From: a virus
Virus record (IMG/VR): IMGVR_UViG_3300042507_002545
Span: 33,989 to 97,988 of that record
Strand: one strand, 5' to 3'
DNA length: 64,000 nucleotides
Made by a program: the position numbers and the translations under genes. Positions 44,833-64,000 of this stretch are shown here, one piece after another; position 1 is the stretch's first letter, and every line of letters begins with the position of its first letter. The notes beneath the pieces were generated by a model, which had not been told where the DNA came from, did not search any database, and saw nothing but the letters and a program-made list of their open reading frames with translations.

Positions 44833-45297
44833 TTAGTTTGTTATAATAAGTATACTTAATAAAAATACGGAGATTCCGCCGAATATCCAATTGTTTCTTT
44901 TAGCCACACCAAGATTACCTTGCGATATATGTAGGGAATCCCTGGTTTCTACCAGGTTTGATTGTAAAACAAAGTTTCTATCAAGGCACTCTGTTGTTCT
45001 TTGGTTTGCTGCATCCATGTATCCAGCCATCTTTTTGATCTCAAACTCCTTATCAAGAATGCGGAGTTCTTGGGTCTTAATGATTTGGTCTTTACCTGCA
45101 ATGCTTTTCTGCAGGTAGTCATAGTCCACAATAGATTTAAGCAAGAGCTCCTCTTGTTTATCTGTGAAGAAGATACCTTTGTCACCATTATAGTTAATCC
45201 TTTGGGGAGTAAGTTGTCCATATACGGTCACGCTGTTCATCAGTTGCGTTAGGGATAATAGCAATAAGTATATCCCGATCACCTTTATCTTTGTCAT
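44833..45297 (-). CDS. Spanin-like protein with signal peptide and C-terminal helix
   Basis: The 154-aa product has an N-terminal signal-like hydrophobic stretch (IGIYLLLLSLTQLMNSVTVY), a central coiled-coil-rich region, and a C-terminal hydrophobic segment (WIFGGISVFLLSILII). It starts inside the preceding gene, overlapping 104 bp. That embedding resembles spanin pairs, but there is no lipobox Cys, so the role is tentative. Confidence 0.55.
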   Translation of the reverse strand: MTKIKVIGIYLLLLSLTQLMNSVTVYGQLTPQRINYNGDKGIFFTDKQEELLLKSIVDYDYLQKSIAGKDQIIKTQELRILDKEFEIKKMAGYMDAANQRTTECLDRNFVLQSNLVETRDSLHISQGNLGVAKRNNWIFGGISVFLLSILIITN

Positions 45298-45559
45298 CTT
45301 GTTTGTTTATAGTGTTTATACTGTTAACTCGTTGAATATCAACAATATCCAAACTGTCTTGGAGAATCTTTAGCTTTAAAGAATCTACTAAGATACTATC
45401 TCTTACATCATCGGCATAAGCTTGACGCTTAAGGTCTTCTATCTTAAGATCTTTTACCTTATTCTTATATTGCAATATTGCGATAAAGGCTACAATTGTT
45501 ACTAAGGTTACTGCTACAGCTATATCACTATACAGTTTCTTCAGTTGGCGCTGTGTCAT
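45194..45559 (-). CDS. Rz-like i-spanin candidate
   Basis: I chose ATG 45559 (MTQRQLKKLYSDIAVAVTLV, 121 aa). An N-terminal transmembrane helix (IAVAVTLVTIVAFIAILQY) is followed by a long Lys/Asp/Ile helical region, like Rz-type inner membrane spanins. Longer starts overlap the holin gene. Its 3' end overlaps the next gene by 104 bp. Confidence 0.55.
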   Translation of the reverse strand: MTQRQLKKLYSDIAVAVTLVTIVAFIAILQYKNKVKDLKIEDLKRQAYADDVRDSILVDSLKLKILQDSLDIVDIQRVNSINTINKQDDKDKGDRDILIAIIPNATDEQRDRIWTTYSPKD

Positions 45560-45839
45560 AAGTAATCTCAGGTTGTGGCTCAGGGGCCGGTTGTACTGGA
45601 GCTGGAATTGGTACCTCTTTTCTTTTATCAAAGATCTTCTCAATAACCGTTAAGCCTAGTCCTCCACCTGCTATTAGACATAGAGCGTCAAACATAAACT
45701 CCGGTGTGATGTGATCATCATTCCTGAAGGTGGCTACGTAAGCTAAGATAATGATATTTAATAATGTAAATGCAGAAAGAACTCTCTTACTTGAAAGAGA
45801 GGATCTGTTACTAAACATGTCATAGAAAAAGTTTTTCAT
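45528..45839 (-). CDS. Holin-like protein
   Basis: The 103-aa product has two hydrophobic helices (VLSAFTLLNIIILAYVATF and LCLIAGGGLGLTVIEKIF) with a basic turn, then a Pro/Glu-rich tail. This is the shape of a class II holin. It lies next to the endolysin and PAS genes. Confidence 0.75.
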   Translation of the reverse strand: MKNFFYDMFSNRSSLSSKRVLSAFTLLNIIILAYVATFRNDDHITPEFMFDALCLIAGGGLGLTVIEKIFDKRKEVPIPAPVQPAPEPQPEITYDTAPTEETV

Positions 45840-45851
45840 TTTGTTATTCTT

Positions 45852-46604
45852 TTATTTTTTTTCTTTACTTCCTTCTTGGGTAGCATACTTGATTCCCATG
45901 ATAGTTCCAACTATTGAAAAGGCGTTTGTTAATAAGACACTAAACATATTACTCCAAGTTGAACCAATTATTTGTGTGTCTTTGCTCATAACTATTGCCA
46001 TCCAATATAGTATTGTTGTAATAACCCCAACTCCTACTATAACGGACAACGCAACTTTAACAATGACTTTTATTAACTCACTTTGACTTTTCTTCATTAC
46101 TATATCCAAGTCATTCAAAGCTGCATCCTTTTCTATCTCTATTGAATTTTTAAGATCCTGTGATTTTTTTAACTCAATCTGCAAATCTTTTGAAAGAGCA
46201 TCTACTGTATTTTTACTATTTACCATAGGTGTAATGTCAGTAGCAATCTTCATTATTTTAGTTATAGTACCGCTTTCATCTAAAATAGGATTGTATGTAG
46301 CTTGTAAGTAAATGGGAGCCCCGTCTATTTTTTTTCTTTCAAACTCTCCTTCAAAAAACTTACCCTCTCTTAGTGTGTCCCAGAACTTTTTATACTCCTC
46401 AGATTTTGAATAGTTATAGTCTACAAAAATGCTATGATGCTTACCAATTAGTTGAGCATGCTCATTTTCTTGAAAGCCCATTGCTTTTAAGAATATAGGA
46501 TTCACCCCTAGGATGTATCCATTGAGATCAAAGTAGATAATAGCGTTACTTCTGTTAATTGCTTCTAATCTACTGAGCAGCTCTTCTTTTGATAAGTTTT
46601 TCAC
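45852..46604 (-). CDS. PAS-domain protein with holin-like transmembrane end
   Basis: In this 250-aa protein, residues about 1-130 form a PAS fold: NAIIYFDLNGYILGVNPIFL, GEFERKKIDGAPIYLQATYN and DESGTITKIMKIATDIT. Residues 131-180 are coiled coil. Two transmembrane helices follow (residues about 182-207 and 222-245) with a Lys-rich end. PAS domains sense redox, light or small molecules. Located between holin and endolysin, it could gate lysis by host state. The family is not recognised. Confidence 0.75.
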   Translation of the reverse strand: MKNLSKEELLSRLEAINRSNAIIYFDLNGYILGVNPIFLKAMGFQENEHAQLIGKHHSIFVDYNYSKSEEYKKFWDTLREGKFFEGEFERKKIDGAPIYLQATYNPILDESGTITKIMKIATDITPMVNSKNTVDALSKDLQIELKKSQDLKNSIEIEKDAALNDLDIVMKKSQSELIKVIVKVALSVIVGVGVITTILYWMAIVMSKDTQIIGSTWSNMFSVLLTNAFSIVGTIMGIKYATQEGSKEKK

Positions 46605-47149
46605 TAGAACTCTCTTAATAGGGTATAAGTAAATGCCTTCTTACCTGATGCTTTACAAGCTGCAATCAATGTAGCATATTGCTTAGGATCATTAAGTACT
46701 TGACATCCTGCTGACCACTTATCTATAATGCTAGATACAGCATTAGGATTAGCACGGTGAATGTTAATACCAAATAAACCTGTTTGTTCTGTAGAGGTCT
46801 CTTCAGCTACATCATCCTTGTCACCATCACGGTATACAGTTACAGGTTTACGTTGTACTAACGCTTCATACTTACCTTGGTGTAACCCTAAGTGGTAAGC
46901 ATCTACATACTGTCCTGGTTTAAGTAATGCTGCTCCTTTAGGATTAAGCAAGTTCTTTAACCAGTGTGTACCAGGATTAGTGGTGCAACTAAATGGAGTC
47001 ATGATAAGACCGTTTACAAGATACATAGTATCATCAAACTTGTTCTTCTCATTAGCCTTAGACCTTACTCCAATAAGATGAAGGGTTGGCCATTGGTAAC
47101 CGAATCCAGCAAATTCTGTTTCTAATTCTTTGTATGTGTATTGTTTCAT
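46604..47149 (-). CDS. Endolysin candidate (L,D-transpeptidase-fold-like)
   Basis: In the 181-aa product, GLFGINIHRANPNAVSSIID then KWSAGCQVLND has the His-x-n-SxGC layout of L,D-transpeptidase/YkuD-like or related peptidoglycan enzymes. It is the first gene of the lysis cassette, before PAS-holin, holin and spanins. Exact bond cleaved is not known. It overlaps the PAS gene by 1 nt. Confidence 0.65.
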   Translation of the reverse strand: MKQYTYKELETEFAGFGYQWPTLHLIGVRSKANEKNKFDDTMYLVNGLIMTPFSCTTNPGTHWLKNLLNPKGAALLKPGQYVDAYHLGLHQGKYEALVQRKPVTVYRDGDKDDVAEETSTEQTGLFGINIHRANPNAVSSIIDKWSAGCQVLNDPKQYATLIAACKASGKKAFTYTLLREF

Positions 47150-47185: not shown

Positions 47186-50100
47186 TTATTGTTCTACTAC
47201 TATGTTTTTACGTCTTGTTTCCATTGTTTTTTGTCTACCTGCAGGATCTATAAATTGACCACTTAATCCAAAGAATTGACCAAATGTTGAATACCATTTT
47301 GGATCACCAGCTTTTTCCCAAGGATATACACCAGAATCTTTTTGGTAAATACCAGATCTATTATCCGTAATATCTGCTGCAATATAACTAATTAAGTTTA
47401 TTGTACGGTTAAAAGTAGGATTAAGCATTGCACCTGTTTTAAGATTAAATATACTACTAAGATTACTAAGTCCGTATCCAGGTGCTGCTAACCAGTCTTC
47501 TTGGTCATGACCTACACGAGTTGTAATATATAGAGCTTGTAATTTTAACCACTCTTGAGAATCAAATCTTGCAGTTTCTTTTTCAACATCTCCATATAAA
47601 TCACTTTCAACTTCAGCACCTAAAATTGGCAATGGTCCACTTCTTCTATAAAGCTTTTTCCAAGTATCAGGAGTTGGTAATTCTTGTACACCACTTTCTT
47701 CTTTTTTACGCTCTTTAACTTTTCTTTTTAAATAGCTTTCGACATCTCCCGTTACAAGCAATCTTGCTTTAGCTTTAAGATCAGCTTTTCTCTTTTTCTT
47801 GGCTTGTTCTTCTAGTGCTTCTTCTTCATCATCATCTGGGTTATAATCAAGAAGTACAGACTTCATGTAGCCAATAGCCATTAACATACCTATCCACCTT
47901 ACACTTTTCATCATGTATACACCTTCTTCTCTTGAAGGAGATACTAATCCTGAACCATATGTTCTTACAGCTTTAGTTAGATAGTTAGTTACAGCACTGA
48001 AGAATCCCATATGAATATCATCATTACCCCAATCGTATCTTCCACGACCTTCACCCAAAAATATATTACCTTTTGCACCATAGTGATTTATTAACATCCT
48101 TGTAAGGTGCTTTTGAATAAATGATACCACTCTATATAAAGCAAACTTCATTGCTTGTGGTTGGTTGAAATCTCCAAATGCTCCGTTTATGTTAGATATA
48201 ACGGTTTGCATTCTACTTTTTACTTTTAAGAATTCTGGACCATTGATATCATATTTAGGGTCTATACCATCTTTTAATTTTATAAGACCATCTGGACCTT
48301 TCTCCCAAGCTCTTAAGTAATTTATATAGGTTGTTTTATTATTTACTGTAATTGGAACTTTTTGATAATGCATCAATGCACCCATAGTTTGCATTGTTGC
48401 TAACATCTCAAGCCACTTACGTGTATTAGTCATGAAGTTAAGTCTAACAATATCACCTGCAAGATTTCTAGCAAGACCATCATCTAGAGCTCTTTTTTGG
48501 TAATCCTCTCCAGGATCAAAAAGCTCAATAAGCTGACCTGTAACTGACTTAGGACCTGCTTTATAAATCTCTGCGGTTACAGTACTCATAGCAAAAAGAC
48601 CCCAAGCTTTACCAGCTTGTAAGCTTGCTGGGTTTATATATTTAAATCCCCAACCTTCAATTTTTAACTCCATTAAGGCATCATAGTAGTTTACAAGGGC
48701 GCTACTTGGATCTAAAGCAAAGTATCCAAATGACGCTACTTTAGCCATTCCTCCAAATAAATTATTTATTGCTGTAGCACCGGCACCTGTTCCATACTTT
48801 TGACCTTCAAATTCTCTAGCGATAAGATAATCTAATGCTTCATATCTAGGAGTTTCTTTAAAAAAGCCAACTACTTTTTCTTTTTGGGTCTTTTTAGTTT
48901 GTTTCTCAGATGTAATAATTTCACCTAAGTTATCTAACTTATTCTTTTTATAAACTCTTTTTCCACTTTCAGCATCCTTAACATAGTAGAATTCTTTCAT
49001 AGCTTTAGCCATTGGAGATAACTCAACAAGCTTCTGATGCTTTTCTAAAGATGCCATATAACGCATTGTACTTTTTACAAAGTTTCTCGATACGTTATTC
49101 ATTTCAATATTAGACCTACCTTGAATAGGAATTTTTGAATTTTGTTTAGCAAAGAAGCTTAATGATTCTACTTCATAATCTTCTGTAAAGTTTGCATCAC
49201 CTTCTTCAAATGATCCAGGTCTTGGTGTAAAGAATCTTATTGCATTTTCAAACCAGCGACTAAAAACTTTTGGTTTTTTTAAATTACGTTTACCAAATAC
49301 ACTCTTTTTTGCATTTCTTAATACATCTCCTACATCTTCTGCAATATCTGTGGTGTATCTAGGAAGCTCCAAATACATTTTAGTGCTACGGTCTTTGCCT
49401 TCTTGAATACCTATATAAAATTCTTTATACTTTTCAAGTGCGTCAAACATAGCCTTATTGGTGCGACGAAGTTCTGCATAACGACTATTTATAAAACGAC
49501 CATCTGGCGCACCTTGCGTTAAACGTTTAGGTAACCAGTTACCTTTATTGTCTTTGTTAGGTGGAATAATATTACCATTTGCATCCTCTGTGTTAGGTAA
49601 TATTTCTTCAGTTAAAAATTCTGGTTTAACATCAAACGTATAATACTCTAAATTAGGTACTGCAAATAATGTTTCTTTTACAAGATTTCCTGATGCATCT
49701 TTTTCTAAAGTTGCCGTAGGTATTTCAGTGCTTTCAAATAGTTTATTATCTGTAGGCTCGTTATAGTTCCAAACTTGTAGTCTTTGCCAAGAATCTGCCC
49801 AGCCGCCTTTACCATCATAAGTTTTTACTCGTATGTGATTTTTATCAAACCATATTGCAAACTGTGCATTTTGAGATTTTATCTCATCTACAACATCGTC
49901 TAATAAAAAGTACTTATCTGCATTTTCTTGATCTATATAGTTAATACCTAAATCGTCAATAACAAATTGGGTATCTACAAGAGTCAAATAGTTATTGTAT
50001 ATATCTAGGTAGTACGTATTTACTTTTTTCTCACTAAGACTTCTTAATGTTTTATAAGCTGTTGCTAATGCTTTGTTTTCATCTTTAGTTAAACCATTAT

Positions 50101-53100
50101 AAGATTGTTTTTCAAATAGCTCAGCAGCACGGTCTTGTTCATCTTGAGATGGCATTTGACCTAGTCCAACATTAGCCATTGCAAAACGTTCAACATAATC
50201 AAGTAAGAAATCATTTTCTTCTTCAGTAAGATTATTAATCTTACCAGAGTTTTCTTTTGCGTATACAATAACCTCTTGGATATTTTTAATAAGAGCCATA
50301 GCTTCTTCTGTTATTTCAGAAGCTGCTACCATTTTACTCTCATCTCTACTAATAGAAGCAATGTCATTTATAATAGAATATAAATCACCAACTGATTCTA
50401 TTTGATCAATTATATCTTGACTTACATTTCTTTGCGCAAGTTGTTCTTTAAGAACCTTAGCAGTTGCTTCTTTTATTTTTGGATCTTTTTTAGCTTCAAT
50501 TTCTTTGATAGCTTGATAAAGACCGGCCTGTATTTCATAGTATTCTTTTTTTGCACTTACTCTTGTATTATTTCCAAGCCAAGCTTCACGCTCTCTTAAA
50601 AATTCTGGAGAATTTCTATCACCATTTATACTTGGTCTTAATAGTAACTGCTGTTCGTAGTCAGCCAATGCTTTTAAAAATACACCAGGACGTGGTTTAG
50701 ATTCATAGAATCCTGAACTTAAGCTTCTATATTCACGTAATCTTTCAGCAATAAGTTTTTCATCTCCGGTCTTAAGGTTTCCAAATCTGTCTACTAAGCT
50801 ATATAAAAATCTTTTTTCTTCTAGTGCAAGTTTACGTAGCTCAGTTTCATCTTTAATTTCAAAGCCTTGACGCTTCATGTCTTTCCACATTTGAAGCTTT
50901 TCATTAATATCATCAAGTCTTCTTTTAGCTTCTGCACCTATATCATCTCTTTCAAATAGTTCTTGTCTATCATAGAATTCAGGCTTATACTTATTATGAA
51001 AGTATAAACGTCGCATTCTATCATAGTCTTGTTTAACCTTATTATATGCTTTCTTATCGACATCATTTAAGCTTTGGTAATATGTAAAACGAGCTTTCTC
51101 AATATTAAATTGTTCCTGCGCATCCCACCATTCATACCCTACAAATTCATCTAAGAACTTTAATACTTTAAACTCATAAAGATTACCATTTGCATTTTTT
51201 TCAGCAATGCTATCCTCCATTAAGAAAGTATCTGCCATGCTAACCAAATTTCTTGCATTTATACCAGCTTTCTTAAGAGCCGGTACAACTTGTGATGCAA
51301 ACATAACTTTATGCATATGGACTTTTGATTCCATTTCCATATAGTTGTTTCTTAGATACTTAGCAAAAGCTCCTACAACAGGATCTTGGTTAACCAAGTA
51401 ACTTTCAAATAATGCATTTATTTGGCTGGCAAGTCCGTTGTTTACAAGATCGCCATCTACCATTTTCTTAAAAGAATCTTTGGTAAGCTTTATACTATTA
51501 TAAGCAGCTTCTTCTATGGCTAATAATCTTGCATTAGCTAATGGAGAATTTTCTAAAAATGCTTTACGTTTTAGCCAACGCTCATCTATTTTTTTAGCTG
51601 TTGGCTCAACAAATTCCCAAAGAGTGTCTGTTAAGTTTTCACCATATATATATAATGCAGCTTTCTTACCTCTTTTTGAAGCTTTTTCAATTTCTGATAC
51701 AAGCTTTTGAAGATCAGATTCTTCTGTAACACCAATGTTTTCCAAGTCATCGGTGATTTTATTAGCTAACTCTATAAAAGAATCTAGATAATCACTTAGA
51801 TTTTTAACACGGTAAATACTAGTTTCAGACACACCAAGCTCTTTAATTTCTTCAATTCTACCAGCAATCTTTTTAGAAATCATATTTAATTGCTGAAGAC
51901 TATTAACAAAGGCAATAGCAAGTTTTCTATTCTCTTCTACAAGATCTTTAATGTGTCTGGTTCTACTAGACTCATAAGTACTAAGGGTAGATGTAATATA
52001 TGCAATGTCCCTACTATCTTCAGTTGTTAGTAGGAGAGCAAGTTCCTGGTACTCTTCTTTAGTGGTAGCTTGAAGCTGATCACTAAATAGTTTATACATT
52101 GCATCGATAGTATTTTTAAGTTGGGCATGTGTCTTTTTAGCAGTCGCGTCATCTACTGCATTATCCAACTCTTTAATAAAATCATTTATTTCTTTAGCGT
52201 ATTGTACTCTATCATCTTCAATAGATTCTTTACTAGCTATAGATGTGTCTATATTAAACTTCTCAGATAGCATTTCATTTGCTAAATCCATAAAAGAAGT
52301 ATTAACTCCTAGGTCACTAAGTTTAGGTCCAGCACCAAATAGTTTTCTAAAGAACTTTTTGATTTGATAAAGTATATTAGAAACAATTTCGCTAAATGAA
52401 TTTGGCATTGGTGTATTAGAAAGCTGAGCTTGTCCAGCCATAGTTAATACATGCACAATAATCTCTTCTGAAAAGCCTTGTGGATCTCCTTCAAGTTCAG
52501 GGTACAGCTTTAAAAAGTTTTCTTGCAGTCCCATTTTACCTAACTCAGACCAAGCTTTCTTAGCTAGTTTTTGAAATAGCTCTGGGTTTTCTTTTGCCAA
52601 GTACTTTACAAAAGGGTGAGCAAACTCGTGGAATAAAGTCTTTGTACTTAATGCACCATCTACTACATATACTTTTCCATTATAAACAAATGCTGGTTCA
52701 TTATTATAAGGAGCCTTTGTATTCTTAGTAAGTTCTATTGCCTCATCTTTACTAATAAATTGAACCTCAGGTTCACCAAACACATTTAACATGTTCATAC
52801 TAGCTGCTAAGTTTTTTACAACTTGCATTGCTTGAACATGCTCTGATTGCTCTTGAGTCAAAGTATTTGTCAATAGTTCATCTATTGCTTCATTACCCTC
52901 TTCATTGACAAGATTGATCATATCATCAATAGCTTCAATCTCCCTTATAAACCACGCCCTATCTATACCACTCTCCTGAGAATTAGGTGAGTTAGGTTGT
53001 ATAGGTAGCGGAGTCTTGAGCACCTTGATGAAATATTTTTGAGGTCCATTTCTTAAATCATTCTCCTCTTTTACAACATCTAAGTAACGTATATTACCGT

Positions 53101-55405
53101 TAAGTCTATTATACGCGTTAACCTCATTTATAGCATTGTTGTAACCACCTTGTGCTAAATACTTTTTATTATATATATTCTTGTCACCATTCAGTTTCAT
53201 AAGATGTTTTTTAAACTGAGCAGGTGTTAAGTCATATATGTTCTTGTTATACTGTGGAGTATCCGTTGCTATATCTACAATAGCATCATTGCTAAATGCA
53301 ACTAGATACTGACTATCTGAAAACATTGTATAATCAAGACCCTTATAGCCTCTATCTTTAAGAAAGCTAAAGAAACTATTTTGAATAGCTAATCCTTCTG
53401 GAGAATTATCAAGTATATTAAACTCAGCTCCAGCTTGTTTTGCAAACTCAGACCTAAGACTTCTATACTCTTTACTATCTCCTTCTAAAAACCCTTTAGT
53501 GTCTACGCTTACTTGTCTTACATTTTTACCGTAGTCCTTTGCCTCTGCTTTATCAACAGTAAAATAGTTAATATTTCTATTATCTAGAGTATCATACCCT
53601 TGATAAACAGTTTTAACACCATCATTAGTCTCCGCAGTTTCTTGTATTGTATCTTCTATAAAAGAAAAATATCTAAATCCAGGAGTTTTAAATTTATAAA
53701 TGTCACTCTTAAATGGAGCAAAGTATATTAAATCCATAATATCTTTACCACGGCCCATATTTATTTTTGCTTCAAAGATTTGCTTCCAATCTTTCCAGTA
53801 GTTATCAAATATCTCTGGATAGTTACCCTCCGCAGTTCTTAAAAAGAAATCTAAAACGTATCTTTTAGGTCTAGTTTCACCAGTTTCTTCATCAATTTCA
53901 AATGCTGTAGGATGCTCAATGTATCCTGTAATAGTAACGCTTTCACCTTTTTTATGGTCACGTCCTATAAATGCAGTTTGGAATGTCCATGAAGGAAATA
54001 CTTCTTTTAGGTTTTTATACCAAGATTGACCTTCTAAAAGTGGTATAATTTCTTTATTAAATTGATTACGCCCCAAAGCTGAACCAACGGTTGTTTTACG
54101 CTGCATGTAACTTAAACCTTTAGTTTGAATCCAGTCTAAGAATTGCATAGCGTTTGCTTCTTTCATGAAATGCTCAAGTGTAATAACACCGTCAATATCA
54201 TGTAGGTCCTCACTAAAGCTTCTGTATGTAGCTCCATATCTTCTCAATACTTGAGAGCCAGATAGTTTATAAGCTTTACCCTCAGGGTCTAATGAGTTAA
54301 ATAGTTTTTGCAACACATCTGCTGCAAAAGGATCTGCAGATAATGTAGTGTAATAGTTTTTTTGTTCTAGTAGATTACCTTTTTTATCGTAGAGCATACC
54401 ATCTCGGACCTCTATACCACGCATCCACTTTTTGAAATCCTTCTTATAGATATCGTCTACTAGGTCAAAAAGTAAATCGTTAAGCTTTTCAGCATTATAC
54501 TTAGTAAAAGGTTTGCCTTTTATAGCCTTACGAATAAAATTATATAATGCAGCAAAGGCTGTTTTAAGAACTGTTACTGCATAAGGGCTTTTAAAACCTT
54601 TTTCCGCAAAAAAAGATTTATCAATATCTGGATTTTCAAAATCTATCTTTTCACGTAAATCTGGTCTATAGTTAAGTAAACCTTCTGTGATAAACTCAAT
54701 AATAACTTGTTTATGAGCCCAAGCATTTTTAGGTGCCCCCTTACGCTCTGAAGGGTCATCAACTATTTCTTCAATAACATCTAAATCAGCTTGTTGAATA
54801 TTATTGTTTTTAGTTAAAGCATCATACTTATCATACAGCTCCTCATACTTATTCCAAAGCTTAATATTAAACCATAAATCTTTAGCTATTTTAGATTTTC
54901 TACCTAAGAATGTATACGCAATATTAGCAGTTTGTTTTGCTAATCCTCTATCGGAAAGATTTTTTGGTATTGCTAGGAGTTTCTGAAGCATATCAAAAGC
55001 TGCAACTGGGGGACCTAGTTCGCCTTTATCCCATCTTCCTGCAGAGTTCATTTGCTCTGCTAAACCAGTCCACTCTTGACTACCTTCTTCAACAATATCA
55101 ATACGTAGTGATCTTATAAAATCATATAAGGAATCTCTAAACTCTTTTTGTTGACCCTCAAATTTTTGATAAGCCTTAAGATTACCTTTGAAGTTTCTTA
55201 CTTTAAACTTTTTAAGCTCTTGTCGCTTAGCTTTATAATAGTCTTTGCGTTCTGGATAAGCTTCTTGTAAAGTATCTAAAATAGCAAAAGGATCAATTAA
55301 AGAGCCCTTATCTTCAGTAAGTAGTAAATAATTACTTACATCGTAGTCTCCTAACAATCTTCTTGCTGCTTCTAATGAAGGATTAAAAATTTGACAACTA
55401 GCCAT
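47186..55405 (-). CDS. Giant virion protein with ART-like and zincin motifs
   Basis: This 2739-aa protein has, at residues about 594-714, TVYQGYDTLDNRNINYFTVD, KAEAKDYG and GLDYTMFSDSQYLVAFSNDA, an ADP-ribosyltransferase-like pattern of the PolyVal type. The zincin motif LFHEFAHPFVKYL lies at residues 925-937 (HExxH at 52616-52630). Long coiled-coil stretches follow (residues about 1050-1750), then hydrophobic patches near the C-terminus. crAss-like phages package giant proteins next to the RNA polymerase and eject them with the DNA; here the ART and protease motifs suggest host attack. Assignments rest on motifs only. Confidence 0.72.
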   Translation of the reverse strand: MASCQIFNPSLEAARRLLGDYDVSNYLLLTEDKGSLIDPFAILDTLQEAYPERKDYYKAKRQELKKFKVRNFKGNLKAYQKFEGQQKEFRDSLYDFIRSLRIDIVEEGSQEWTGLAEQMNSAGRWDKGELGPPVAAFDMLQKLLAIPKNLSDRGLAKQTANIAYTFLGRKSKIAKDLWFNIKLWNKYEELYDKYDALTKNNNIQQADLDVIEEIVDDPSERKGAPKNAWAHKQVIIEFITEGLLNYRPDLREKIDFENPDIDKSFFAEKGFKSPYAVTVLKTAFAALYNFIRKAIKGKPFTKYNAEKLNDLLFDLVDDIYKKDFKKWMRGIEVRDGMLYDKKGNLLEQKNYYTTLSADPFAADVLQKLFNSLDPEGKAYKLSGSQVLRRYGATYRSFSEDLHDIDGVITLEHFMKEANAMQFLDWIQTKGLSYMQRKTTVGSALGRNQFNKEIIPLLEGQSWYKNLKEVFPSWTFQTAFIGRDHKKGESVTITGYIEHPTAFEIDEETGETRPKRYVLDFFLRTAEGNYPEIFDNYWKDWKQIFEAKINMGRGKDIMDLIYFAPFKSDIYKFKTPGFRYFSFIEDTIQETAETNDGVKTVYQGYDTLDNRNINYFTVDKAEAKDYGKNVRQVSVDTKGFLEGDSKEYRSLRSEFAKQAGAEFNILDNSPEGLAIQNSFFSFLKDRGYKGLDYTMFSDSQYLVAFSNDAIVDIATDTPQYNKNIYDLTPAQFKKHLMKLNGDKNIYNKKYLAQGGYNNAINEVNAYNRLNGNIRYLDVVKEENDLRNGPQKYFIKVLKTPLPIQPNSPNSQESGIDRAWFIREIEAIDDMINLVNEEGNEAIDELLTNTLTQEQSEHVQAMQVVKNLAASMNMLNVFGEPEVQFISKDEAIELTKNTKAPYNNEPAFVYNGKVYVVDGALSTKTLFHEFAHPFVKYLAKENPELFQKLAKKAWSELGKMGLQENFLKLYPELEGDPQGFSEEIIVHVLTMAGQAQLSNTPMPNSFSEIVSNILYQIKKFFRKLFGAGPKLSDLGVNTSFMDLANEMLSEKFNIDTSIASKESIEDDRVQYAKEINDFIKELDNAVDDATAKKTHAQLKNTIDAMYKLFSDQLQATTKEEYQELALLLTTEDSRDIAYITSTLSTYESSRTRHIKDLVEENRKLAIAFVNSLQQLNMISKKIAGRIEEIKELGVSETSIYRVKNLSDYLDSFIELANKITDDLENIGVTEESDLQKLVSEIEKASKRGKKAALYIYGENLTDTLWEFVEPTAKKIDERWLKRKAFLENSPLANARLLAIEEAAYNSIKLTKDSFKKMVDGDLVNNGLASQINALFESYLVNQDPVVGAFAKYLRNNYMEMESKVHMHKVMFASQVVPALKKAGINARNLVSMADTFLMEDSIAEKNANGNLYEFKVLKFLDEFVGYEWWDAQEQFNIEKARFTYYQSLNDVDKKAYNKVKQDYDRMRRLYFHNKYKPEFYDRQELFERDDIGAEAKRRLDDINEKLQMWKDMKRQGFEIKDETELRKLALEEKRFLYSLVDRFGNLKTGDEKLIAERLREYRSLSSGFYESKPRPGVFLKALADYEQQLLLRPSINGDRNSPEFLREREAWLGNNTRVSAKKEYYEIQAGLYQAIKEIEAKKDPKIKEATAKVLKEQLAQRNVSQDIIDQIESVGDLYSIINDIASISRDESKMVAASEITEEAMALIKNIQEVIVYAKENSGKINNLTEEENDFLLDYVERFAMANVGLGQMPSQDEQDRAAELFEKQSYNGLTKDENKALATAYKTLRSLSEKKVNTYYLDIYNNYLTLVDTQFVIDDLGINYIDQENADKYFLLDDVVDEIKSQNAQFAIWFDKNHIRVKTYDGKGGWADSWQRLQVWNYNEPTDNKLFESTEIPTATLEKDASGNLVKETLFAVPNLEYYTFDVKPEFLTEEILPNTEDANGNIIPPNKDNKGNWLPKRLTQGAPDGRFINSRYAELRRTNKAMFDALEKYKEFYIGIQEGKDRSTKMYLELPRYTTDIAEDVGDVLRNAKKSVFGKRNLKKPKVFSRWFENAIRFFTPRPGSFEEGDANFTEDYEVESLSFFAKQNSKIPIQGRSNIEMNNVSRNFVKSTMRYMASLEKHQKLVELSPMAKAMKEFYYVKDAESGKRVYKKNKLDNLGEIITSEKQTKKTQKEKVVGFFKETPRYEALDYLIAREFEGQKYGTGAGATAINNLFGGMAKVASFGYFALDPSSALVNYYDALMELKIEGWGFKYINPASLQAGKAWGLFAMSTVTAEIYKAGPKSVTGQLIELFDPGEDYQKRALDDGLARNLAGDIVRLNFMTNTRKWLEMLATMQTMGALMHYQKVPITVNNKTTYINYLRAWEKGPDGLIKLKDGIDPKYDINGPEFLKVKSRMQTVISNINGAFGDFNQPQAMKFALYRVVSFIQKHLTRMLINHYGAKGNIFLGEGRGRYDWGNDDIHMGFFSAVTNYLTKAVRTYGSGLVSPSREEGVYMMKSVRWIGMLMAIGYMKSVLLDYNPDDDEEEALEEQAKKKRKADLKAKARLLVTGDVESYLKRKVKERKKEESGVQELPTPDTWKKLYRRSGPLPILGAEVESDLYGDVEKETARFDSQEWLKLQALYITTRVGHDQEDWLAAPGYGLSNLSSIFNLKTGAMLNPTFNRTINLISYIAADITDNRSGIYQKDSGVYPWEKAGDPKWYSTFGQFFGLSGQFIDPAGRQKTMETRRKNIVVEQ

Positions 55406-55408
55406 CTT

Positions 55409-58400
55409 TTAGCATTTATTGAGTTCTTGTATTTTATTTAAGATATCTTCACGAGTTACTCGTATGAATTTTTTAGGTGCCACAACCTCATAGTTCTTGT
55501 TCTTGTACCCAAATTCTTCGTAAAGCCTCTTAGACAAATATACGAAAGTTTTAGTGGCCTTTGCCTTCTTTTGATTTACATTTTCACCATTAACATCAGC
55601 ACCAATCATGTATTGCCCATATCCAGCAGCATTCCAGAAAATTTTATTATCGTAATCTTTAGCGGCTTTCTTAAGTGCTTGAATACTATTCTCAATAGCT
55701 TTTACATTTAAATCATAGTTATCATCATTCATTTGCTGACTTACAACATCTTGAAAGCCTAGCTTACTTGTTAAGCCAAATGAGTTTGTATGCTCTTTTG
55801 AAAGTGCAAATACTGAGTCATTTGTTTCTAAAGGTTTAGCATTTGGATTAGCTGCCCCATTGTATACAAACAAGTAATTTTTTCTATCTTTAAGAAGCTG
55901 ATCTATAGCTAATTTAAGATCTACTCCTTCAGGTGCTTTTTGTACAATGAAGCTTGGACTTTGGTAGTTATCTCTAAATGTTTGCACTGTACCAAATGAT
56001 CCAGTAAGATCTGCCGCAGGATTTTTAGAAGCTTTCCATAAAGGTTGATCTAGTGTGTAGTTTCTAACCTTATATCTACTAGCAGTATTCTTATATGAAT
56101 TAACTGTACTAAACTTATTAAAGTAACTGTTAACAAGATTCCAAGTCATTAACTTATTGCTTTCCATGTAGTTAAGCATGCTTTCTAAGATTGGAGTTAA
56201 TCTTGTATCCGGCATAATTTGTCCTATACCATATTCCCCTTTGGAGTTAAATCCTGTAGTAAACATCGTATATATAGGTAAGTTGCTAAAGAACTTTGAA
56301 ATCTCCTGAGCCTCACTCGAGGTCATGTTAGCAGTTTCAATTAAGTTATATGGGTCCATTAGCTCAACTAAGTCTTCGTGGAATCTATTTATTCTATCTG
56401 GGTCTAACTTGCTAGACTTAAATTTAATAACACGTTCTTTAGTTTTTGCCTCATCAGCAGTTAGGAAGTCCAATACTTTATACTTCTGTACTAGGTCTGG
56501 GTACTTCTCTTTGATATCAAGAAGTCTTTTTGCATATGATTTAGTAGGACTCTTTAAAATATAGTATTGGTTAAATGTATTATCCAAGGCCATATCTCTT
56601 AGAGTATTCTCATATGCAAAAGTTGTAGCTTCTTTTTCTATATCAGCCTCTGCAAAGTCTTCATACTTAGCAGCTATAAAATCTTTTTTATACTGGATGT
56701 AGTCATCTCGCTTGATGATTTCAGATACTGGTATTGCATTTCTTAAATATTCACGCTCCATTACATATCTACCATATTCACGTATGTTTTGGAACATACT
56801 TGATCTAATTACACCAAATGAAAATGGTAGTTCTGGATTAGTGATATTAATGTTTTCTTTACCGTTATTAGATTGTAAGTTTTCAAACTCCTCTACCAAT
56901 TTTTGTTTATCAAAATACATCATCGGTATAGTTGTCTTGTCTTTTAACTTAACGTTTTTAACAAATACCGATACAGGAGACTTAGTTGTTGGCTTAAGTT
57001 TTACCGACTTAGATGCTACTTGCAAACTCTTATAATACTTAATAGAGTCAAGGTCCAAATTACGCATGTAGTTCTGGAACATAAACATTACTAAGTCATT
57101 TCTAAAGTTAGAAATGAACGTCTCTTGATCACCAAATGTATCAGAAACCGTATCCTTAAAGTCTTTTCTTCCTAACTTTTTAAGTAAATAATCATTTACC
57201 AACTTAGAGTCTCTAATAGTAAATAGATTCTTATAAATATCAGCCATGAACTCTGATATACCAAAGCTTGATATAGATGACTCATCTAAGATTTTATTGA
57301 TAACATCATCACCTAGTCTTTCATCTTCACGTAACTGGTCAGCTTGATATTGTCTTAAGTTAGTTTCAAATAAACTTGCTGCAACTTGGGTATCTAAATT
57401 AGTAGTACGCTTTACTGCAGTAATTACTTTAGACATATCTTCTATATCTAAGAAGTGTAGTAACAATCCCAGCTGCTCAGTGCTTTCAAAATCAAGTTCG
57501 TCTTGTAAATGATCTTCAAAATATTGCTGATTGAAGATTTTATCTTTTAATGATCCTGCAATATCCGTTGCTGCATTTTTAACACTCTTTGTATAAAGCA
57601 TTACCTCACCATCATCATTAGTATCTGTGTAAGGCATCATTTGTGAAAAGTTCATAAGAACTTTTCTACGTGCTTCACTTCTAAAGAAGTTAGGGTTTGA
57701 TAACTCAATACCTAGAGGACCTGCATAAGCAGACTTAGCTTTCTTAACCTCGTTAATGTATTGACGAATAATAGGTTGTGATACAAAGTAAGCAGCTTGT
57801 CTTATAGGTACACCAGCTTGAACCATTAATAATAATGATGGCGCAACAAAGTTATTACCTTGAATATCAAAGATCCACGGATCTTTAGCGATATCTACCC
57901 AACCATTGATAAGTTGAGAAATAACATCTGACACTTTGTTTACACCATCTGCATCATATAAGTTACTTAATGATATAGCAGTACCTTTTGGAGTTAGTAA
58001 TGTATTATGTGGCAAATAAATAGTTTGCTCTTTTTTAATTGGATCACCTTTATCGTCTTCTCCAATTGTATATTCAGGTTGTAAATAAGCACCAACCGTA
58101 TTAAAGATTACACTATAAGTATTGTCTACAGCACCTTGTCCAAGAGTTCTCTTACCAATGCTATTAGAACCATGCTTATAGATATTATATTCTATTTCAA
58201 ATATTCTAGTACCTTTAATTTTATCACCTCTTTCACTAAATACATTTTGTAAAGAGTCGTATGGTCTTACTTTAGAAGCAAGCTCTTGTGCAATAGGTTG
58301 TACAATATCAGTTGCGTTAGGTGTAATAAGATCTACATAGTTACTCTCTAAAGAAAGTATATCTATAATATCTGTAATAACATCATTTTGAAAATCTTCT

Positions 58401-61400
58401 GCTATAGATACAGAACCATCTTCATTTTTGCTAAGCTTATACATTAAAGTAGTAAGCTTATCAATGTCAAAGTCACCTCCTGATTTAGCTACAATTTCTG
58501 CTGGAAGTACAATTTGGTTACTACCTTCTGGTAAGAACTCATATACTTCCATAAACTCCATGGAGTTTAGACCTTGCACAGGAATACGCACACCAGCTAA
58601 AGAAACAAGCTTGCGATTATCATTTTCATTTAGCCAAGTCTCATCTTTAAGAAGTTGGTTAAGAGCTTGAAGACGAGTAAGTGATTCCCCTTTTCTTGCG
58701 GCTTCTTCAATCATCTCAGTAACTTTTGGCAAGTCTAAAAGCTTTTTATACTCTCCCTGAATACCAATCTTAATCTTCATAGCCATTGTCTTACCATCTT
58801 TTTTTCTATAGAACGGTAAATCATTGGTGCCTAAAACTTCCAGGCGCTCTTTAGAGTCTTTGTTAGCATTGAAGAAATCACGACTAGTATAACCAGCACC
58901 TGATACTTGAACAAGAGCCTCTCCTGTAACCTTTTGTTTAATAAGTTTTTTATTAATAATAGATACAAGAACCTTCTCAATCTCAGCCGCCGCTAGAGAT
59001 ACATCAAGAGAAGATTTTAATTTACCTTCTTTATTAAGCTTGACAAAATCTAAGTGGTGCTCAGCAAGTTCACGCTTAGTTAATTGACTTTCTATATAAG
59101 CAAATAACTTATCTAAAGGTCCTGTTGGTTTACCATTTTCATATGTCCAACCTATTTCATCTAATAACTCTTGTTTCTTCTGAGCCATAAGATTTTCAAG
59201 GTTACCTTGGAAACGTTTAATTAAACTATAGTTTTTAGATTCTCTACGTTTAGCTGTGTCATCTCCAATTTCATTCCACCTTGCCATACGTGCTTCTTTA
59301 GGCAAGTTAGGTTCAAAGTCTGTAGGTACACCATTTTCCATTAACCCAGACTCAATAAGTTTACGTAACTGAGTAGGGAATGTGGTTTTACTCTTATACT
59401 TAGGTGCAATCTCTAACTGCTTTTTAAAGTATTTTAAGAATATATCGTTAGGAGTAAACATGTACCCTTCTTCTGTGAATGCTAGCTCACGGTTAGCAGC
59501 ATCTTCTGGATTTTTATAAAATTTATCTGGCTTGCCATTAGGTGTAATAGTAGCAATCTTAGATCCTGATCCAAATAAAGCATAGTCTACCTTTTGCTCA
59601 ACCATCTTATTATGAAGCTTTTCAAGATCGGAGCCTTCAATAGTAGATGGAATTAATGGTACCAATGAGAATTTATGGAATGCTGTAAGTGGCAAACCAT
59701 TTGTTGCAAGTGGTCCCCAGTATTGCATCTTAAGTACAGGGAAGAATTCTTTAATCTTAGTCTGATCAATGTTCTTCTTAGCCAATACATCTCTATATAA
59801 TAACTCTTGTGTATCTGACCATGCACCCATCATAATGCTAAGTGCTTTATAACCATCAAAAGTTATCCAGCCTTGAGCATCCCCTTCTTTCATTTCACGG
59901 TATGGCTTAGCACGTTCTTTAACAATTTTATCAACGTCCTCGTCCGTTAATTTACCATTCTTATAGCCAGGTGAATTTTTGATAGAAGTTCTAATGTCAT
60001 CTTCAATGGCAGCGTAGTATAATGATTTTGTTTCAACATCTTCTAATACAGCACTTCTAAATTGTTCACTATAAGATTTTTCTACACTTTGCCCCGTATA
60101 CCAACTACTTGAACTATAGCTAGCTTTACCAGGAGCAAATACAACACTATTTAAATAACGTAACATTGCAGGATCTGTTCTTGGAATAATACCACCGCTA
60201 TTAATACCGGCGTTACGTTTTTGGAACTCTTCCTTAGCCATGTTATACAATGCTGGATCACCATGATAAAGCAATACGGTTTCTACATTGTGTATAAAGC
60301 TGTTGTAAACATGTGTTTTAATTGCAATATTTCTGGTTTCATTTCTACTTAGCTTCTTAGCTTTTGTATCATCACCTGCATAGATCTCTTGAATTTTATC
60401 ATGCATGGTGTTATCTATATACTCAGCTTCTACTAGTTGTTCAGTAAACTCATTTATCTTGTTTGCAAAATATACTTTTATAACATCATCTGCTATTCTC
60501 TTTCTAAGATCACTTGACTCCGGTAAATCCAAATAATCACGTAATCTACCGCCGTACTCAGCAGGAATATTCATTAACTCTTCTTGAAGTTCAGGTCTAA
60601 TCATGTCTGAGAATATCACAAACTTTTGACCCTCTACCCCATACGTAGATTTACCTACTGGTATCATACGCTCAATAGCATTAGCTGGTAAAGCCTTTAC
60701 TCTATTAATACGATCAAGCTCGGCCTCTAAATAACCAAGTAAGATATTAAAAGCTGCAGCTTCCCCATTGGTACCAAGTGCAAACTCTCTAGGGTTTACA
60801 TAATACTTTCTATTAGATAAGTGATATACAAGTATTGTAGATTTATCTGCAGGAGTAGTTCCCATAGGTAAACCGTGGATAACACTCACGTGAAAATCTG
60901 TAAGGCGCTTTGTAAATTCATCTGAGTCTGATGCTGCAATACCATTATAGGCTTCACCATTAACAGTAAATGAAACACCTGCTAGATTATTAATATCTAT
61001 AGTAATCTTTTCATTAGACCCAACCTCTTCTTTAATAGAACGCTTAGGACCACTAGGCTTTGACATGTCAAAAAGCTCGTGGATTGTAACAAGACGTTTT
61101 CTCTTAGGATCTGGATTATTACTTACAAATGGATTACGTAGTGCAGATAAATGATTCATCTCAGGCTTTGCAGTAAGAGTATTAAAATCAGGTGCTTCCT
61201 GTAATTCTCTAATCTGTTGAGTAATGGTATTGTTTTCCATAAACTCATACTGAGTATCACCTGCTGCATTTAATACCATGAAGTCTGAATAGTCATCAGT
61301 ATATGTAGCTTGAATCTTTTGTAAAGAGTTGTAGAATCCACGCAAGCCTTTTAAAACTTCACCATTGTCCCTAATCTTTTTAGTAGGGTTAATCAAGTCA

Positions 61401-64000
61401 TCAATTTTTCTTACAATGACTATGTTCTTTGGTTTGTTTTCAGCAATAGCTTTATCGTTATGAAGCTTTATAGCCTCAATGCGATCAAAGATTACTTTAG
61501 CTGGATTAGGAATCATCTTATTTAACGCCGCAACAATTTTAGATTTGTTGTCAAAGTAAATTCCTACATCTTGTAAAAACTTAATTCTATTAAGATTGCT
61601 ATATTGTGATACATAGTCGTTATATATAGCATCAATATCTAAGAAGTTATTACCATTTATATCAGGTTTAATATACTTAGTAGTAACTGTTTTAAATCTA
61701 TCATTCCAGTCACGGCCTATTTTAGCATCTGCCGTTGAAGCTCCTCCTACCTTAGCACTATACTCAAACTCAGTTTTAATGATATTACCCTCTTCATCTC
61801 GCTCAAGTACATTAGTTGTTCTATCTACAACTAAAGCAACAAGTGGTACACGAGTTTTATTAAATGCATCATTAAACTGTGTCCATAAGTTTTGAGCATT
61901 AGCCGTCATCTGTGTATCAGGATTGCCAAGTTTAATTAACAATTCTTGTATAAACGGATAGTCTTCTTTTGAATCTTGTAAACGAGTATACATTTCTTGT
62001 GGGCTATTAGCACCCTGAAGTATTCTAGTTATACGATTCCAGGCAATACCAAAATCCATTAATGTATTAAACCCTAGATTGTTCATTGCTTTAGAACCAT
62101 CTGACTCTAAAGCATGTAAGCTTTTAATTAAATAGATTACACTTTCACTAGCAAGATCTAGTAATGATGCTTCATTACCTCTTCTATCATGACCATCTCT
62201 ACTCTTAAATTCACCAGTGTCTTCAAATAATAATACTGCTTTTTCTGCAGCTGTAACAAAATCTGAGAAACGAGACTTCTTATTATAATAAGCAATAATA
62301 CCTTTATCGCTATCAGTATCCCAGTTGTCCGTTGCCCATACTAAAGCATCTTGTTGATTTAATAGTTTTTGCTTTTCACTATCTGTTGTAGCATTTGCTA
62401 TTTGAACATCTAGTGCTTCAATAGCTTCTTCTATTTTAGTCTTAGCGTAAGTTAAAGCTGCTTCTCTACCTTTTGGTATAGATAGGAGAGCCGTTGTGTA
62501 ATATGCTTTATCGCCGGAACCGTCTTCGGTTACACCAATTCTAAGATTAACAAAATCGGATACTAATGAATCTAAAGTATCCACTAATTCCATAGAGTTA
62601 CGCATAGTAAGTAAAGGTGTACTATAGTTTTCATCTATAGACTCAGCACCCTTATTCATTACTTGCTGTCTAATCTCTGCAGGTAAGTTTTGCTCAGAGT
62701 AACTATACTCAGTTAATCTTCCAAACTGCAGCTTATTATAAATATCATTAGCATAAGTCAACGCTTCCTGGTTTAAAACCATGTCGTTGTAACTCTGCAC
62801 TCCAAATAATTCAAAGAAGAAATCAAGAATTTTCCTAAAGATACTACGCTGTGTAACATCTTTAATTTCCATTTTACCACCAGATAGCATGTAAGCTCTA
62901 AACTCTTCAGCTAGGAACTCTTCAAGTTCAAGGTCACTTGCTTTAGAGAAGTCTCTATATACACCTCTGTAAGTTCTAAAGTTACCACTACGCTTTCTAG
63001 TTTTTTCATAAAGCTCTTGTCTTTGAGCATCTGTCATAAACATGCGAGTAAACCCGTGCCATGCTTCGTGGTACAAGTCCGAGTAATTAGCACCTTCAAA
63101 AAGTATAATAGCATTTTGATACCACTTTGCAACTGATGCAGGGTCATAAGTATTAACCTCGTTCATTAAATTTTCAAGTGGAAACTTATCTTTAAATATG
63201 CTATTGTCAAACCACTTCTTAGCCTCTTCAAGTTTAGCTTTTAATTCATTTGGACTAAGTTGTGCAATGTCAAAGCGTAAACCGAATTGTCTAACAAAAT
63301 CTCTAGCTTGTTTTTTATTTCTAGAAAGCCCTTGGAATTCATCATCCTCAAGGCTATCATTCTTAATGATCTCATTTATAACCTCAATAGCTGATGGCTT
63401 AGGTGCTTCCTCAACTTTTTCAACTGGAGTTTCTTCAGTAGTTTTAGCAGCTTTCTTTTTATCAGCCGGTTTAGTAGTAGCTGACTTCTTACCCTTATTT
63501 GTTTTAGCAGGTGTAGCTGCTTTCTTTTTCTCGTAGTTTAAGATCTTCTCAAAAGTTTCTGAGCTAGGGTCAAACTTAATATGACCATTAAGCCCTACTA
63601 TTTGATTGTCTTTATTAAGTGGAATATTAATATAGAAGTTATCTTTAATGTAATCTACATAGTTAACTTCATTTTGTGTTTTAACCCACTCACCATCTTT
63701 TTCATTAATACTAAAATTGTCAAATAAACCACTAATGTTACCAAGTACATTTGACTTAATATGCAGACGTCTTTTATAGACCTTGTAGTAGCCAGTACCT
63801 TTAGTTCTTTTTCTAGCTATAGGGTCTTCAATAATAGTATTCTCATCTAACTTATCCGCATAAGCTTTATCTTTTTGATTATTTATAACAGTTTTACCGT
63901 CAAGAAATCCAGCTTTTATTTCTTTCTCAGTAACCTCAGTTCCTGATACATAAAACTTTTCAAAAAGATGTTTATATATCGCTTCTTCTACAGCAGCTTC
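55409..64000 (-). CDS. Giant virion RNA polymerase-like protein (5' end outside window)
   Basis: The frame is open from the right edge (GAA at 64000) to the stop at 55409, 2863 visible residues, so the ATG at 63166 is internal. A Lys/Ala/Thr linker lies upstream of that ATG. YHEAWHGFTR (HEAWH at 63056-63070) is a zincin motif with EEFLAEEFRAYML as a likely third ligand. The segment GVRIPVQGLNSMEFMEVYEF then KSGGDFDIDKLTTLMY (DFDID at 58460-58474) mimics the beta-prime catalytic loop RxP...DFDGD. crAss-like virion RNAPs of the YonO group use DxDxD, which fits. Confidence 0.8.
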   Translation of the reverse strand, partial: EAAVEEAIYKHLFEKFYVSGTEVTEKEIKAGFLDGKTVINNQKDKAYADKLDENTIIEDPIARKRTKGTGYYKVYKRRLHIKSNVLGNISGLFDNFSINEKDGEWVKTQNEVNYVDYIKDNFYINIPLNKDNQIVGLNGHIKFDPSSETFEKILNYEKKKAATPAKTNKGKKSATTKPADKKKAAKTTEETPVEKVEEAPKPSAIEVINEIIKNDSLEDDEFQGLSRNKKQARDFVRQFGLRFDIAQLSPNELKAKLEEAKKWFDNSIFKDKFPLENLMNEVNTYDPASVAKWYQNAIILFEGANYSDLYHEAWHGFTRMFMTDAQRQELYEKTRKRSGNFRTYRGVYRDFSKASDLELEEFLAEEFRAYMLSGGKMEIKDVTQRSIFRKILDFFFELFGVQSYNDMVLNQEALTYANDIYNKLQFGRLTEYSYSEQNLPAEIRQQVMNKGAESIDENYSTPLLTMRNSMELVDTLDSLVSDFVNLRIGVTEDGSGDKAYYTTALLSIPKGREAALTYAKTKIEEAIEALDVQIANATTDSEKQKLLNQQDALVWATDNWDTDSDKGIIAYYNKKSRFSDFVTAAEKAVLLFEDTGEFKSRDGHDRRGNEASLLDLASESVIYLIKSLHALESDGSKAMNNLGFNTLMDFGIAWNRITRILQGANSPQEMYTRLQDSKEDYPFIQELLIKLGNPDTQMTANAQNLWTQFNDAFNKTRVPLVALVVDRTTNVLERDEEGNIIKTEFEYSAKVGGASTADAKIGRDWNDRFKTVTTKYIKPDINGNNFLDIDAIYNDYVSQYSNLNRIKFLQDVGIYFDNKSKIVAALNKMIPNPAKVIFDRIEAIKLHNDKAIAENKPKNIVIVRKIDDLINPTKKIRDNGEVLKGLRGFYNSLQKIQATYTDDYSDFMVLNAAGDTQYEFMENNTITQQIRELQEAPDFNTLTAKPEMNHLSALRNPFVSNNPDPKRKRLVTIHELFDMSKPSGPKRSIKEEVGSNEKITIDINNLAGVSFTVNGEAYNGIAASDSDEFTKRLTDFHVSVIHGLPMGTTPADKSTILVYHLSNRKYYVNPREFALGTNGEAAAFNILLGYLEAELDRINRVKALPANAIERMIPVGKSTYGVEGQKFVIFSDMIRPELQEELMNIPAEYGGRLRDYLDLPESSDLRKRIADDVIKVYFANKINEFTEQLVEAEYIDNTMHDKIQEIYAGDDTKAKKLSRNETRNIAIKTHVYNSFIHNVETVLLYHGDPALYNMAKEEFQKRNAGINSGGIIPRTDPAMLRYLNSVVFAPGKASYSSSSWYTGQSVEKSYSEQFRSAVLEDVETKSLYYAAIEDDIRTSIKNSPGYKNGKLTDEDVDKIVKERAKPYREMKEGDAQGWITFDGYKALSIMMGAWSDTQELLYRDVLAKKNIDQTKIKEFFPVLKMQYWGPLATNGLPLTAFHKFSLVPLIPSTIEGSDLEKLHNKMVEQKVDYALFGSGSKIATITPNGKPDKFYKNPEDAANRELAFTEEGYMFTPNDIFLKYFKKQLEIAPKYKSKTTFPTQLRKLIESGLMENGVPTDFEPNLPKEARMARWNEIGDDTAKRRESKNYSLIKRFQGNLENLMAQKKQELLDEIGWTYENGKPTGPLDKLFAYIESQLTKRELAEHHLDFVKLNKEGKLKSSLDVSLAAAEIEKVLVSIINKKLIKQKVTGEALVQVSGAGYTSRDFFNANKDSKERLEVLGTNDLPFYRKKDGKTMAMKIKIGIQGEYKKLLDLPKVTEMIEEAARKGESLTRLQALNQLLKDETWLNENDNRKLVSLAGVRIPVQGLNSMEFMEVYEFLPEGSNQIVLPAEIVAKSGGDFDIDKLTTLMYKLSKNEDGSVSIAEDFQNDVITDIIDILSLESNYVDLITPNATDIVQPIAQELASKVRPYDSLQNVFSERGDKIKGTRIFEIEYNIYKHGSNSIGKRTLGQGAVDNTYSVIFNTVGAYLQPEYTIGEDDKGDPIKKEQTIYLPHNTLLTPKGTAISLSNLYDADGVNKVSDVISQLINGWVDIAKDPWIFDIQGNNFVAPSLLLMVQAGVPIRQAAYFVSQPIIRQYINEVKKAKSAYAGPLGIELSNPNFFRSEARRKVLMNFSQMMPYTDTNDDGEVMLYTKSVKNAATDIAGSLKDKIFNQQYFEDHLQDELDFESTEQLGLLLHFLDIEDMSKVITAVKRTTNLDTQVAASLFETNLRQYQADQLREDERLGDDVINKILDESSISSFGISEFMADIYKNLFTIRDSKLVNDYLLKKLGRKDFKDTVSDTFGDQETFISNFRNDLVMFMFQNYMRNLDLDSIKYYKSLQVASKSVKLKPTTKSPVSVFVKNVKLKDKTTIPMMYFDKQKLVEEFENLQSNNGKENINITNPELPFSFGVIRSSMFQNIREYGRYVMEREYLRNAIPVSEIIKRDDYIQYKKDFIAAKYEDFAEADIEKEATTFAYENTLRDMALDNTFNQYYILKSPTKSYAKRLLDIKEKYPDLVQKYKVLDFLTADEAKTKERVIKFKSSKLDPDRINRFHEDLVELMDPYNLIETANMTSSEAQEISKFFSNLPIYTMFTTGFNSKGEYGIGQIMPDTRLTPILESMLNYMESNKLMTWNLVNSYFNKFSTVNSYKNTASRYKVRNYTLDQPLWKASKNPAADLTGSFGTVQTFRDNYQSPSFIVQKAPEGVDLKLAIDQLLKDRKNYLFVYNGAANPNAKPLETNDSVFALSKEHTNSFGLTSKLGFQDVVSQQMNDDNYDLNVKAIENSIQALKKAAKDYDNKIFWNAAGYGQYMIGADVNGENVNQKKAKATKTFVYLSKRLYEEFGYKNKNYEVVAPKKFIRVTREDILNKIQELNKC

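Follow-up and report, generated by a model that had tools for sequence, protein, structure and literature searches.

Introduction

The timing of phage lysis depends on holin accumulation, on membrane potential or on the sensing of superinfection. Phages that sense conditions for lysis are already known, namely T4 with its proteins RI and RIII (PMC8385771) and N4 (PMC12642591). The T4 antiholins RI and RIII are sensing partners that tune holin-mediated lysis, RIII being cytoplasmic (PMC8385771, PMC11413866). Two-TM (transmembrane) holins and dual holin-like lysis proteins such as LysF1a/LysF1b place an N-in/C-in hairpin beside the endolysin, and a second TM protein regulates lysis (PMC13056207). 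In VqmA of vibriophage VP882, a phage-encoded PAS sensor makes the lysis decision depend on a small molecule (PMC8284805, PMC12802170). PAS chemoreceptors lead from one or two tandem PAS domains into a long helix.

Here we describe PASTM, a PAS-linker-2TM protein encoded in the lysis cassette of an uncultivated virus. PASTM may be compared with RI and RIII as a possible sensing partner of the holin; however, RI senses superinfection in the periplasm, and neither antiholin has a PAS domain, such a TM hairpin or any sequence relation to PASTM. The predicted hairpin beside an endolysin recalls two-TM holins and LysF1a/LysF1b, but these are small, have no sensor domain and show no detectable homology to the PASTM hairpin. 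VqmA, for its part, is no membrane lysis protein but a DNA-binding transcription factor whose signal is an autoinducer. With BdlA, AerC and Aer (and with MmoS and NifL) PASTM shares the PAS subfamily pattern GKHH...FW...LQATYNP...ATDIT, and the His and the F-alpha Trp of the chemoreceptors are kept, but it has neither an MCP domain nor a kinase, carries a unique hairpin of two TM helices at its end and has the residues corresponding to Aer Asn85 and Arg115 replaced. No description of a PAS sensor on a phage lysis membrane protein was found in open-access papers on PAS and lysis or holins, where the transcription factor VqmA came nearest, and a recent survey of lytic proteins does not mention PAS (PMC12596118). 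This agrees with an earlier note on this DNA, made without database searches, which knew of no described phage lysis protein with such a sensor.

Results

The lysis cassette

The window, i.e., the whole stretch of 64,000 nucleotides analyzed here (IMG/VR record IMGVR_UViG_3300042507_002545, positions 33,989 to 97,988), contains the following features; the basis of each assignment is given in parentheses.

46604..47149, minus strand: endolysin, 181 aa (phrog_33083, 9.4e-13; phrog_3000, 2.2e-33)
45852..46604, minus strand: PASTM, 250 aa, GTG start (ORF list, Pfam, AlphaFold2 model)
46230..46547, minus strand: PAS domain of PASTM, residues 20-125, with H57 (Aer H53) and W75 (Aer W70, F-alpha) (Pfam, model, PDB sequence matches 3ewk/8dik, conservation)
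46077..46229, minus strand: helical linker, residues 126-176 (AlphaFold2 model, within one helix 125-205)
45990..46076, minus strand: predicted TM helix 1 of PASTM, residues 177-205 (hydropathy, model)
45879..45977, minus strand: short loop and predicted TM helix 2, residues 210-242, TQIIGSTWSNMFSVLLTNAFSIVGTIMGIKYAT, invariant in the PASTM family (conservation, hydropathy)
45528..45839, minus strand: two-TM holin-like protein, 103 aa (hydropathy)
45194..45643, minus strand: spanin-like protein, N-terminal TM followed by a helical region (hydropathy)
44833..45297, minus strand: putative membrane or exported protein, hydrophobic segments at the N and the C terminus (hydropathy)

The position of PASTM between endolysin and holin, as claimed in the earlier note, was borne out by PHROG matches on the endolysin side and by topology and position on the side of the two-TM holin-like protein; both labels are thus founded on profiles, topology and position. 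The endolysin gene ends in a TAG stop that shares one base with the GTG start of PASTM (TAGTG), and the 103-aa holin-like gene begins 12 bases after the PASTM stop. Since the 103-aa ORF has no family match in Pfam, PHROG or NCBIfam, it is called a holin by topology and position; homologues of its product (cluster 1) adjoin PASTM in many loci. For the spanin-like ORF, which has no Pfam or PHROG match, an internal ATG near 45559 is the likelier start. The ORF at 44833..45297, also without a match in Pfam or PHROG, may belong to the spanin set.

The window endolysin, for which Pfam gave no match, contains a His...Ser-x-Gly-Cys arrangement (INIH...WSAGCQV), which by eye resembles the active-site motif of L,D-transpeptidases of the YkuD type. 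Its nearest cultured relatives occur in Bacteroides and crAss-like phages, hinting at a Bacteroidota host. The same phage encodes a virion structural protein (1682-2932) that is cyanophage-like, being 66 percent identical to proteins of cyanophages S-WAM2 and S-RIM8. An assignment of the window phage to the crAss-like phages via phrog_1645 was rejected, as the best relatives of that protein are cyanophage structural proteins (66 percent) and PolA is widespread. Upstream of the lysis cassette, two giant genes lie in a row (47186-63166; 2739 aa and at least 2585 aa), neither of which has a PHROG match; the 2739-aa product has no Pfam match either.

Predicted architecture of PASTM

The PAS domain was recognized by PF13426 (5.6e-11, residues ~20-125), by PF00989, PF08447 and PF08448, each above its cut-off, and by the NCBIfam model TIGR00229 (3e-12). 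An AlphaFold2 model, built from 26 aligned homologues and of moderate confidence (pLDDT 74.6), shows a PAS fold at residues 21-123, a continuous helix at 125-205 and a second helix at 211-246, and a Foldseek comparison relates the fold to the PAS domains of LOV, MmoS, NifL and Aer. Hydrophobic segments were found by hydropathy at residues 177-195 and 220-238. The structure prediction that the earlier note had proposed as a check thus reproduces its PAS fold and its two helices; of the coiled coil described there, the helix following the PAS domain stands, while heptads lend a canonical coiled coil little support. Lysines precede TM1 and follow TM2, and hydropathy, charge and the moderate-confidence model together suggest that both ends of PASTM are cytoplasmic (N-in, C-in).

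PAS subtype and cofactor residues

The best PDB sequence relatives of the PASTM PAS domain are two redox sensors, MmoS (3ewk, 1e-8) and Aer (8dik, 4.8e-4), and judged by its sequence the domain is of the chemoreceptor (BdlA/AerC/Aer) type. In PAS domains of this kind the F-alpha Trp is the primary FAD determinant, whereas the His and the Asn are secondary and not kept in every cluster; conservation of the Asn is confined to clusters 4 and 14 and does not extend to cluster 9, to which AerC belongs (PMC10468136). In our reading, Aer W70 corresponds to this F-alpha Trp. The side-chain contacts of Aer to FAD are H53, N85 and R115, with H53 stacking on the flavin (PMC9668731), and the PAS domains of BdlA have been grouped with FAD binders (PMC8694187).

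Every one of the 205 phage PAS copies readable at these positions has H57 and W75. W75, aligned to Aer W70, is present in 74/74, 64/64 and 67/67 ungapped phage copies, and H57, aligned to Aer H53, in all ungapped copies, even where H56 has changed. At the Aer N85 position PASTM has R90 throughout, so that the flavin-contacting Asn is not kept, and the position of Aer R115, an Arg near flavin N5, is A121 throughout. Six residues (N35, H57, W75, R90, N105, and K119) never vary, either among the phage PAS copies or among the 25 cellular copies read. Binding of a cofactor is plausible, and because His57 and Trp75 are invariant, a redox/flavin sensor is our best guess. The redox sensing put forward in the earlier note is accordingly favored by these two residues but weakened by the loss of Aer Asn85 and Arg115. 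Another of its suggestions, light, is disfavored, and a LOV photosensor was rejected, since the position of the reactive Cys of LOV sensors (the Aer H53 position) holds the invariant His57.

No match to the MCP signaling domain PF00015 was obtained for PASTM, whereas the cellular relatives L147 and L151 have one. In three Vibrio loci (L148, L150, and L152), three PAS domains of the PASTM type are followed by STAS instead of MCP (Pfam, L148).

Extent of the PASTM family

A first pattern scan found relatives of PASTM on 277 IMG/VR contigs, 80 of which were kept; these are 69-85 percent identical to PASTM in the best segment. When the hairpin alone was used for scanning, it was found on at least 554 IMG/VR contigs. 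The family ranges from 250 to 387 aa and has two layouts, with one PAS domain (~250 aa) or two tandem PAS domains (~370 aa) on the same linker and hairpin. A model of a two-PAS homologue reached pLDDT values of ~90 and ~85 in the PAS domains and ~60 in the hairpin. The 81 homologous ORFs, 64 of them distinct, are under strong purifying selection, which argues that the PASTM ORF is not a chance one.

No PHROG family covers PASTM, and a full-length match was absent from 50,697 phage records; MT836939 and Listeria phage records, considered as relatives, match the PAS part only. In bacterial genomes and plasmids, too, only the PAS part was found, mostly in chemoreceptors (PAS-MCP), and a cellular origin of the whole protein was rejected on these grounds, although a scan with two short PAS patterns could miss a divergent cellular copy. 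Among 74 further loci fetched by pattern, none joined the hairpin to a non-PAS sensor, and an apparent hairpin without PAS (L203) proved to be a frameshifted copy.

As a cultured homologue we considered gp108 of Cellulophaga phage phi19:1 (KC821607, 54202-54924; L267:24202-24924; 240 aa), and rejected it because it has no Pfam PAS match and a reversed domain order. The protein gives a structural PAS-like match (R9ZZL0), preceded by a probable N-terminal TM and a coil, and belongs to PHROG 31932 (function unknown). Its gene is clustered with small TM genes ~1.5 kb upstream of gp113, which encodes the lysozyme. It represents a second, unrelated PAS-like protein in the lysis region of a cultured phage; S0A2B2 of phi18:3 may be similar.

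An invariant transmembrane helix

Residues 210-242 are invariant among the 64 distinct PASTM proteins; the scans favor conserved stretches, which makes a selection bias possible, and several patterns of the first scan lie outside the hairpin. In a set of 22 sequences, synonymous differences amount to ~0.7 per site and are saturated, ruling out recent spread as the cause of the invariance. The dN/dS ratio, a rough value given this saturation, is ~0.015 for residues 208-243 as compared to 0.1-0.2 for the PAS domain, the linker and the first helix. Along helix 2, a small residue recurs every four positions (T210, G214, S218, S222, T226, S230, and T234), as is typical where helices pack closely.

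The hairpin has no holin match in Pfam, PHROG or NCBIfam. Homology to the neighboring two-TM holin-like families was rejected as well, the best probability in a profile comparison being 27 percent and in a different region. The term holin-like, which the earlier note had used for these helices, thus finds no backing in homology, and PASTM is not filed as a holin, because its hairpin shows no significant holin homology. In most cases PASTM is better conserved than the proteins encoded around it, with a median identity of 0.72 versus 0.32 for the holin-like protein.

Linkage to lysis genes across phages

Neighbors were counted at 76 distinct PASTM loci having both flanks. An endolysin gene lies within three genes of PASTM in 68 of them and is immediately adjacent in 43; a holin-like gene (clusters 1 and 21) lies within three genes in 54. 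The other 22 have no recognized holin-like gene within this distance, and a few of these are also without another small TM gene nearby. In four distinct loci (L081, L119, L103, and L142), no recognized endolysin gene adjoins PASTM.

In a second test, which depended less on the fetched neighborhood, 35 whole contigs were searched for PASTM and for three Pfam families of endolysins. On 24 of the 25 contigs (40-272 kb) with a Pfam-detected endolysin, PASTM lies within 2 kb of it on the same strand, with a median gap of 291 bp; such linkage would arise by chance with a probability of ~1.6e-34 were the contigs independent, an assumption that does not fully hold. The linked endolysins are of four unrelated types, namely peptidase M15, GH19, GH24 and the phrog_3000 type of the window, and gene order varies among the cassettes, suggesting that the association has been re-made or maintained. 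The lysis-cassette context reported in the earlier note for this single stretch thus extends across hundreds of phages, and PASTM belongs to lysis cassettes.

The carriers are diverse: T4-type gp23 was found on 5 of the 35 contigs and a strong PolA match (phrog_1252) on 8 others, and the remaining contigs carry neither. The gp23 and the PolA group each include one-PAS as well as two-PAS forms, which suggests exchange between phages.

In two loci (L081 and L119, the contig of the latter carrying T4-type gp23), PASTM lies among replication genes, which by eye are recombinase-, exonuclease- and ribonucleotide reductase-like. On two related contigs, a ~750-aa TonB-dependent-receptor-like gene, recognized by eye (L069:8190-10439; L070:7189-9441), and lipoprotein-like genes are found directly downstream of the PASTM lysis block.

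Discussion

A redox-type sensor on membrane helices beside lysis genes suggests that phages may time bursting by the energy state of the host. In the reading we prefer, to which we assign a probability of about 45%, PASTM is a membrane sensor of the lysis cassette whose redox/energy PAS domain gates holin-mediated lysis via the hairpin. The cytoplasmic PAS domain, in one or two copies and of the flavin/redox chemoreceptor type, would read the redox or respiratory state of the host, and a change in its state would be signaled down the continuous helix to the tightly packing two-helix hairpin. Within the membrane, the hairpin may then contact the holin, acting as antiholin or co-holin, and release of the endolysin would be advanced or delayed. 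The presence of a separate holin-like gene in most loci and the higher conservation of PASTM suit such an accessory regulator. Several points speak against this reading. The Aer FAD contacts N85 and R115 are replaced by R90 and A121, four loci have no recognized endolysin next to PASTM, the topology comes from hydropathy and a model of moderate confidence, and a hairpin that does not vary while the holins beside it vary strongly is odd for a direct contact with the holin. This last point is the least explained fact of the family; a conserved host membrane partner or self-assembly may account for it.

A conserved membrane protein of the host could likewise be what the hairpin binds if PASTM did not act on lysis at all and was a late membrane protein travelling with the late or lysis block, with a role in superinfection exclusion or in interference with energy-taxis or respiratory signaling of the host. 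The chemoreceptor type of the PAS domain and the four distinct loci away from an endolysin fit this explanation, which we nevertheless regard as rather unlikely given that the linkage is specifically to lysis genes, across unrelated phages and endolysins, and that stop and start overlap with the endolysin in the window. Alternatively, PASTM itself could be the hole-former, or a second one, as a sensor holin or pinholin in which PAS domain and linker set the oligomeric state and the hairpin makes the lesion. Two TM helices that are N-in/C-in by charge, the small residues along the invariant helix, which suit helix packing, and the nearly constant lysis context would be in line with this; like holins, PASTM has an endolysin neighbor and at least one predicted TM helix, and 22 of the 76 loci have no recognized holin-like gene (clusters 1 and 21) within three genes. 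However, at 250-387 aa PASTM is far above the known size of holins and matches no holin family in the three databases, a separate holin-like gene to which it has no significant profile similarity is near in 54 of the 76 loci, and holins are normally variable while the hairpin is not. A hole-forming PASTM is thus quite unlikely.

Many PAS domains serve as dimerization modules, and with two of the three Aer side-chain contacts to FAD replaced, the domain could be cofactor-free and only dimerize the hairpin. This is improbable, as the six invariant residues are stricter than a plain dimer interface needs and the related PAS domains of BdlA fall among FAD binders (PMC8694187).

Returning to PASTM as a sensor that gates lysis, its broadest form, in which flavin-type PAS lysis regulators are widespread and portable across unrelated phages and host redox or energy state directly gates the membrane step, is more tentative and in our view rather doubtful. 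Whatever signal PASTM reads, its unusually invariant TM helix needs explaining. If a dedicated intracellular sensor is indeed wired to the membrane step of lysis, host metabolism is something that phages are able to gauge ahead of the burst, metabolism-dependent lysis becomes testable with single-residue sensor mutants, and environment-dependent lysis timing would be carried by a portable gene.
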